Shown piece by piece: positions 13,351 through 61,647 of a DNA stretch of 64,000 bases. Every line of letters starts with the position of its first letter. Position 1 is the first letter of the stretch. Under the pieces are notes generated by a model. It had not been told where the DNA came from, did not search any database, and saw nothing but the letters and a program-made list of their open reading frames with translations. Source of the stretch: Candidatus Wallbacteria bacterium (lineage in GTDB: Bacteria; Muiribacteriota; UBA6191; JACPRK01). The position numbers and the translations under genes are program-made. The stretch is from positions 61,310 to 125,309 of the forward strand of contig JACPRK010000127.1 in the NCBI GenBank assembly GCA_016190005.1, read 5' to 3'.

Positions 13351-14304
13351 TCAAGCATGACGCGTAGGGCCCAGGCGCGCGGCTTCGGCCGGACCACAAG
13401 GCGCCTTGACCAGCTCGAAGCTGAACATCCAGGCGGCCAGCTGCAGCAGCGGGACCCGGGTCAGAACCCGGTCGAGCCGGTCCAGCGCCGGCCGCAAGGG
13501 GGGCGCAAAGATCGAGAGAACGCTGGCCAGGTGCCAGAATCGCAGGTCCTCGACCTCGAACTGCCCGCGTGAGCCGCGCAGCCGGGCCGGCGTCAGCACG
13601 TGGGAGCGCTCCCAGCGCGTCCGCCGCGAGGGCGTCAGCTCGCGAAACAGCCGCAGCGCCGGATTGTAGCCCAGGGCCTCGAGCGCCAGAACCCGCCCCC
13701 CAGGGGCCAAGATCCGGTACAGCTCCTTGAGGCACGCCTCGAGGTCGAGATGGTGCAACACGCCTCGGCAGACCACTCGATCGATCGACCCCGAGGGGAG
13801 CCTCGACTCCTCGGCATCGCACTGGAGGAATCGAGCGCGCGAACCGAGACCGGCCTCGCGGGCCGCGTCACGGGCCAGGGCGATCGATTCTCCGCTCAGA
13901 TCGATCCCGACTGCCAGCCGGGCGCCGGCCCGCGCCGCCAACAGCGCGTCCCCTCCGCGCCCGCATCCGTAGTCCAGAAACACCGCGCCAGCCGCCTCAC
14001 GCTCGATCCACTCGACCACGTGCCGGCTCGACATCGCCGTCGCCTCGTAGAGTCCGGCCCCGACCCGCCCCGGCGCGCCCGCCCGCTCCTGCGCCCTGCG
14101 GCGATCGTGGAACGTGCTCTCCTCGCGCTTGCGCTCCGGCAACCCCGCAAGCCACTCGGCATCCGCCAGCCCCGCCAGCTCCCCCAGCCGCCGCTCCAGC
14201 CCGTCAACGGAGCAGCCCGCCGGGAGACCGGTGGCGTCTACCTGTACCGGGTTTTCCAAGGAAAACCCGGTACAGGTAGACGCCACGGAGTCAACGGCCT
14301 CCAT
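13351..14304 (-). CDS. Class I SAM-dependent methyltransferase
   Basis: VFLDYGCGRGGDALLAARAGARLAVGIDLSGESIALA and GSIDRVVCRGVLHHLD; ATG at 14304 is 1 nt after the GNAT stop (TGATATG). Confidence 0.85.
   Translation of the reverse strand: MEAVDSVASTCTGFSLENPVQVDATGLPAGCSVDGLERRLGELAGLADAEWLAGLPERKREESTFHDRRRAQERAGAPGRVGAGLYEATAMSSRHVVEWIEREAAGAVFLDYGCGRGGDALLAARAGARLAVGIDLSGESIALARDAAREAGLGSRARFLQCDAEESRLPSGSIDRVVCRGVLHHLDLEACLKELYRILAPGGRVLALEALGYNPALRLFRELTPSRRTRWERSHVLTPARLRGSRGQFEVEDLRFWHLASVLSIFAPPLRPALDRLDRVLTRVPLLQLAAWMFSFELVKAPCGPAEAARLGPTRHA
14231..14286. repeat. Palindromic element, copy 1
   Basis: GTGGCGTCTACCTGTACCGGGTTTTCC-AA-GGAAAACCCGGTACAGGTAGACGCCAC: perfect 27-bp arms, 2-nt loop. 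Confidence 0.95.
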
Positions 14305-14305
14305 A

Positions 14306-14875
14306 TCAGCCAAGCTCCAGCACCATCACGACCCGGCCGGACACGCGGCTCTCCTCGCGAAACCCCGCCTTCGCGAAGAGCGGCTCCGGACCCGTCCAGA
14401 CTTCGTTCACGTCCTCATGACGGCCAGGCTTGGGATACGCCTCGACCCGCCGCACGCCACGCGCCCGCAGGTCGTCCAGGATGCCACCCAGGAACAGGTG
14501 GGCCAACCCGCGACCTCGATGCTCGGGTCGAATCATCAGACAGGAAATCGCGTGCGCAGGCGGCGCCCCTTCGCGCACCAGCTGCCGCTCCAGTTTCGCC
14601 ATCCCCGCCCTAGGCCTGCACTGGCACCACCCCGCGACGCTCCCGTCCACGAAGAGCAGATAGCCATCGTGACCGCCCTCCCGGAAGATACGCTCGCGCA
14701 CCGCCCTGTTCTCCTCGGCCGTGCGATCGCCCCATCCCTCCCAGCTCGGCACCGTCCAGGCACTGCAGTAACACCACCCGAACGGCTCACTTCTCATCAG
14801 CCGCCAGAAATCCGCCTCGAGCGCAACCTCCAGCCTTCTAACCTCGACGTTCATCGGCCCGAAGTATCGCGCCAC
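14306..14875 (-). CDS. GNAT family N-acetyltransferase
   Basis: AISCLMIRPEHRGRGLAHLFLGGILDDLRARGVRRVEAYPK: acetyl-CoA binding motif. Confidence 0.85.
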   Translation of the reverse strand: MARYFGPMNVEVRRLEVALEADFWRLMRSEPFGWCYCSAWTVPSWEGWGDRTAEENRAVRERIFREGGHDGYLLFVDGSVAGWCQCRPRAGMAKLERQLVREGAPPAHAISCLMIRPEHRGRGLAHLFLGGILDDLRARGVRRVEAYPKPGRHEDVNEVWTGPEPLFAKAGFREESRVSGRVVMVLELG

Positions 14876-14977: not shown

Positions 14978-15112
14978 AGCCACCTCCCCGCTCATCCCCA
15001 GCCACCTCCCCGCTCATCCTGAGCTTGTCGAAGGATGCACTGGCTGCGGCTTCTGCGCGACACGCCCTTCGACGAGACTGTCCTGAGCTTGCCGAAGGGC
15101 CCAGGATGAGCG
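14978..15112. repeat. Intergenic repeat region with CTCATCCTGAGCTTGTCGAAGG-type units
   Basis: AGCCACCTCCCCGCTCATCC occurs twice with 22-bp period (14978, 15000), followed by CCTGAGCTTGTCGAAGG and CCTGAGCTTGCCGAAGGG, plus complementary CCCTTCGACGAGACTGTCC and GGATGAGC. Confidence 0.8.
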
Positions 15113-61577: not shown

Positions 61578-61647
61578 GAAATCCCGTGGCGTCTACCTGT
61601 ACCGGGTTTTTCGAAAAACCCGGTACAGGTAGACGCCACGGGATTTC
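61578..61647. repeat. Palindromic element, copy 2 (70-bp perfect palindrome)
   Basis: gaaatcccGTGGCGTCTACCTGTACCGGGTTTTtcgaAAAACCCGGTACAGGTAGACGCCACgggatttc. Confidence 0.95.

Follow-up and report, generated by a model that had tools for sequence, protein, structure and literature searches.

The palindrome at the start of the methyltransferase gene

In the window (the whole 64,000-nt stretch of DNA analysed), the minus-strand ORF 13351–14304 encodes a class I SAM methyltransferase (Methyltransf_11, 317 aa). A GNAT acetyltransferase gene (14306–14875, minus strand) lies directly upstream, and its stop codon TGA (14308–14306) is 1 nt from the methyltransferase ATG at 14304. A palindrome begins 18 nt inside the methyltransferase ORF and occupies codons 7–25. 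Its perfect core (14231–14286) consists of two 27-nt arms (14231–14257 and 14260–14286) that are 100% complementary and separated by a 2-nt loop; this geometry, including the spacing to the GNAT gene, is as an earlier sequence-only reading of the locus had described it. With one mismatch allowed, the arms extend to 29 bp (14229–14288). Judged by the family consensus, GGAAAWCCCGTGGC-GTCTACCTGTACCGGG-TTTTC-nn-(reverse complement), the full element likely spans 14222–14295, and the hairpin sequence in the gene measures 60–74 bp depending on the extent taken. The outer part of each arm (~14 nt, consensus GGAAAWCCCGTGGC) is degenerate in the methyltransferase copy, which departs from the consensus over its outer ~7 nt on each side. 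The element occurs again at 61578–61647, in the intergenic space of two minus-strand genes, with 35-nt perfect arms and no loop. These two copies are by far the longest hairpins of the window, the next-longest having 14-bp arms with one mismatch allowed, and the core 20-mer GTCTACCTGTACCGGGTTTT occurs four times in the window versus none in 100 shuffles. Folding of the RNA gave −85 kcal/mol for 141 nt (z −6.75). At 15012–15034, 0.7 kb from the element, there is an unrelated REP-looking sequence, GCTCATCCTGAGCTTGTCGAAGG; similar strings occur in several flanks of element copies in the source genome, and this type of sequence is common in other bacteria.

To place the element, we compared the source genome (G000; 4.48 Mb, 72.7% complete, window in contig C103) with a sister species (G002; JACQZN01, 'Candidatus Wallbacteria') and a third congener as outgroup (G001), all genomes compared being incomplete MAGs. 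The sequence-only reading had proposed aligning orthologous methyltransferases that lack the element. The sister-species ortholog (94% aa) carries an identical palindrome, and the outgroup ortholog (55%) is without it, with MDIEALDRSL opposite the SVDGLERRL that follows the element in the window. The multi-copy family described below, the outgroup ortholog and the positions of start codons support the earlier claim that a palindromic element was inserted in coding sequence. The peptide then assigned to the element, VASTCTGFSLENPVQVDAT, is correct, and in-frame reading would yield the methyltransferase stretch ENPVQVDATGLPAGC. The suggestion that a similar peptide is read on either strand is right for the family consensus, both strands of which read GKPVASTCTGFSRKPGTGRRHGFS and ENPWRLPVPGF.ENPVQVDATGF; in the consensus 72-bp dimer, each strand has two open frames out of three.

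Analysis of the start codons indicated that the element is probably coding. Only three ATG, GTG or TTG codons precede the conserved N-terminal helix: the ATG in front of the element, plus GTG at codon 7 and TTG at codon 16, both within it. The next usual start 3′ of the element is a TTG at codon 55, inside the conserved region, and thus half of the element or more should be translated, with ATG 14304 as the most likely start. It is improbable that the element instead belongs to the 5′ UTR or start region, with translation beginning inside or after it and little or none of it coding. In some species, N-terminal REPs are mostly non-coding (PMC3733652), the GTG and TTG within the element could serve such a start, and other 5′-edge copies of the family are probably non-coding, such as the one ahead of a prepilin N_methyl motif (L063). 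Yet residues 33–54 align with the outgroup ortholog even though no ATG, GTG or TTG occurs from the palindrome to codon 55, and even a start at TTG codon 16 would retain half of the element. A GGAG also precedes ATG 14304 by 10 nt, and this ATG is coupled to the GNAT stop. A start wholly downstream of the element, the alternative raised in the earlier reading, is unlikely because the stretch from the palindrome to the conserved helix contains no usual start codon. Judged from these sequence features, translation most likely proceeds from ATG 14304 through the element, which would place ~25–30 additional residues N-terminal to the conserved fold. With a strong RNA hairpin so close behind the start codon, translation would probably be lowered or conditioned. 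An AlphaFold model of the methyltransferase, built from a 2-row alignment, had a mean pLDDT of 37 and gave no usable structure. Comparison with the sister species (L078) revealed that ~0.55 kb around the element (window ~14120–14660) is nearly identical and the surroundings are ~91–94% identical, as if by recent recombination or strong constraint.

A dispersed family of inverted arms

A search of the source genome, which the sequence-only reading had recommended, revealed that the element is dispersed. A 22-mer arm core (≤3 mismatches) gave 57 plus-strand and 52 minus-strand matches, with none for the reversed control, and a 20-mer (≤2 mismatches) gave 86/96 matches in the sister species versus 0 in the outgroup. 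Outside the genus, no member of this family (family A) was found in 37 further genomes of the phylum (40 in total), except for one isolated mismatched match in G015, and the exact element was not found in IMG/VR viral contigs. To derive an arm consensus, 60 loci and the window were extracted and aligned. The aligned arm, GGAAAWCCCGTGGCGTCTACCTGTACCGGGTTTTC, is ~36 nt long, with the consensus ending ~14 nt outside the core. A full copy of ~72 bp consists of two such arms in inverted orientation with a spacer of usually 0–4 nt. Dimers and single arms together were mapped to about 65–66 places in the source genome, comprising about 40 dimers and some 25 single arms. Four contigs of this genome (C34, C78, C84, and C133) end at or within a copy; therefore, the palindromes probably break assembly, and copies are probably undercounted.

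Most copies are intergenic, close behind stop codons. When the 66 places were classified by a simple gene caller based on codon usage, 32 fell between tandem genes, 18 between convergent and 4 between divergent genes, 3 at contig ends, and 9 in called genes, the last an upper limit on coding copies since some called starts are over-extended. These 9 of 63 copies compare with about 50 expected at 80% or more coding, and such mostly extragenic placement is the REP pattern (PMC3733652). A position behind genes in tandem or convergent pairs, together with the A-tract, GC stem and T-tract layout, would also suit a non-mobile structure under selection for its hairpin shape, for example a bidirectional terminator. 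We consider this very unlikely: the whole ~36-nt arm, including the loop, is conserved across sites, copies occur in coding sequence, and arms flank a RAYT gene (see below). Termination may be a secondary use of what we regard as a mobile element.

Two further genes carry in-frame copies. In an OpuAC-permease fusion (L044), a 24-residue insert, GNPVASTRTGFSENPVRVDATGFP, lies between the two Pfam domains, and in the outgroup protein (73%) the flanks are joined directly. In an ApbE protein (L047), the insert lies inside PF02424, where the outgroup protein is ~25 residues shorter. The outgroup is thus without all three inserts, that of the methyltransferase included. Four other in-gene copies were set aside: L128 and L134 appear to be chance resemblances in normal coding sequence, and L015 and L041 are single arms close to what are probably the true starts.

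RAYT-type genes and comparison with known repeats

A Y1_Tnp search returned 2, 2, and 5 genes in the source genome, outgroup, and sister species, respectively. One of these, in the sister species (G002:C135, locus L073, ORF 1468–2208), encodes a 246-aa RAYT with HVH and YVELNP motifs that scores above the PF01797 cut-off. It is flanked by family A, with a forward arm at 1256 and a reverse arm at 2224 whose outer ends point outward as in the dimers; both arms are single and slightly decayed. The rough chance of finding family A arms on both sides of a RAYT is ~5e-5 for five genes. An alignment of five RAYTs shows invariant HVH and Y---NP motifs, and their profile matched TnpArep (4er8) best in the PDB (E 6e-7), where a search with a single RAYT sequence gave no match. 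The NCBIfam RAYT model scored 60 bits against a cut-off of 80. The conserved C-terminal extension, GR..GS..F...LE...GR...P..PG.P, had no Pfam HTH match at E ≤ 1; an HTH-like domain at the C terminus is a trait of TIRYT subclass 2.1. Neither the L073 RAYT nor its flanking genes were found in the 72.7% complete source genome, so absence of the RAYT there is uninformative; in the outgroup, the downstream gene is present and the other flank is unmatched.

Other RAYTs are accompanied by other palindromes. An orthologous pair (G000:C140 and G002:C6) is bracketed on both sides by family B palindromes, GAAAACCGGGGACACACGACCTATTTT, with 35/36 family B matches in the source genome and 49/48 in the sister species. 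The RAYT of G002:C37 carries a third family, C, with 26/27 and 47/48 matches in these two genomes, respectively, counts that are inflated because its 20-mer nearly matches its own complement. A further RAYT, present in both species (L010 and L077), has on both flanks short hairpins of a fourth repeat type, GGGCGGGCA-NNN-TGCCCGCCC. More distant RAYTs of the phylum have short inverted repeats starting with GGGGACA, which is the hallmark of TIRYTs. Taken with the RAYT flanks, these repeats lead us to read family A as REPIN-like, non-autonomous dimers of RAYT/TIRYT terminal repeats, and family A is apparently cognate to such a transposase, as suggested by the flanking repeats in the sister species. 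We assign a probability of roughly 0.8 to the reading of the palindrome as a miniature element, REPIN-like and non-autonomous, of RAYT-type terminal repeats that spread in an ancestor and is in-frame and translated in the methyltransferase. Two terminal repeats of a RAYT-type Y1 HUH transposase would have been joined head to head with almost no spacer, the RAYT would have recognised the arms as single-stranded hairpins, and the dimers would have spread through the genome in the common ancestor of the source species and JACQZN01.

A MITE mobilised by a DDE transposase that duplicates its target would likewise have inverted repeats and high copy number. Around the methyltransferase copy there is an 8-bp direct repeat, GTCAACGG (14203–14210 and 14290–14297, plus strand, the latter overlapping the degenerate outer arm), a possible target duplication. 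Against this origin, which we regard as highly improbable, no target-site duplication peak was observed across 38 dimers, single arms persist as units, and the transposase bracketed by arms is a Y1 enzyme.

The REPIN-like reading places family A beside several known systems. REPINs, doublets of inverted REPs whose movement is attributed to RAYTs, were described in Pseudomonas fluorescens SBW25 (PMC3116915). Like them, family A forms one hairpin from an inverted doublet, has doublets better conserved than singlets, and is extragenic; each RAYT has a separate family, and the RAYT gene is flanked by the same repeat (for family A, in the sister species only). In contrast to REPINs, family A belongs to another phylum, its spacer is ~0–4 nt, it is near-perfect over ~72 bp, and its arms are no REPs of the GTAG type: the GTGG and GTAG strings that they contain are not followed by a hairpin. 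TIRtrons are associated with TIR-associated tyrosine transposases (TIRYTs; PMC3733652, and subclass 2.1 in PMC6006769). They share with the present system a RAYT-like Y1 gene (HUH, Y---NP) bracketed by inverted non-GTAG repeats and genomic families of single and dimeric TIRs, although for subclass 2.1 no REP-like repeats were reported in the vicinity of the gene (PMC6006769). The TIRs of the phylum's related RAYTs are of the GGGGACA type, which family B also carries, its GGGGACAC fitting the motif GGGGWSAS, whereas the family A arm reads GTGGCGTC in place of this motif of many, but not all, TIRs. The analogy with Rickettsia palindromic elements drawn in the earlier reading holds for how the element works and not for membership. 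Those elements and intragenic REPs are likewise in-frame palindromes in ORFs, with dimers adding 20–30 residues, but the Rickettsia sequences are unrelated. RPE-4 and RPE-6 are CGTC repeats (PMC3733652) without a linked transposase, whereas family A has one, and CGTC occurs inside the family A arm with no 8–9 bp stem and 4–5 nt loop. Coding palindromes of Nematomorpha mitochondria are also long perfect inverted repeats inside protein genes; the abstract of that study mentions no RAYT-linked dispersed family (PMC6649704).

The kind of element is therefore already known from REPINs, TIRtrons and intragenic REPs; the phylum, the three coexisting families and the co-varying arms are new. These data extend RAYT-linked palindromic repeats to Wallbacteria, tie a non-GTAG dimer family to one specific RAYT, and provide three outgroup-checked cases of such a palindrome becoming putatively translated protein sequence.

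Age and arm matching of the copies

Comparison of the source genome and the sister species revealed that eight of nine comparable sites are common to both; therefore, most insertions predate the species split, and no recent movement is shown. No clean empty site was found between these two genomes, the one exception (L058) being a replaced region. The methyltransferase copy, 6 codons into the gene in a stop-free frame, was present before the two species split.

The arms of dimers have a pairwise identity of 0.965 versus 0.901 for singlets, a difference that may partly be an artefact of copy finding. In family A, arms differ by 1.55 within copies versus 2.59 between copies, and none of 10,000 permutations was as low. 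In family B, whose arms were transcribed by hand from the match listing, the values are 0.24 and 1.14. This matching fits either the spread of subfamilies as dimers or the correction of quasipalindromes by template switching, and co-variation in two families opens arm correction in natural palindromes to tests with genome data. We offer as a tentative proposal, rather less probable than not, that TIRYT-class transposases in the genus sustain several parallel populations of near-perfect dimers, with arm-to-arm correction by template switching maintaining hairpin perfection, and that these are a recurrent source of 24–30 residue insertions.

The arm tips seem prone to tandem duplication. The 12-nt tip GGAAAWCCCGTG (≤2 mismatches) recurs outside the element, no more than 40 nt away, in 18 of 76 flanks, versus 1 of 76 control flanks taken 300 nt away. 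Source-genome dimers with an extra arm tip include L013, L044, L012, and L056; at L044, one repeated tip (GNPV) is present in the source genome only. At L035 (L107:984–1179), four tandem single arms in the sister species correspond to one in the source genome, with a repeat unit of ~50–80 bp.
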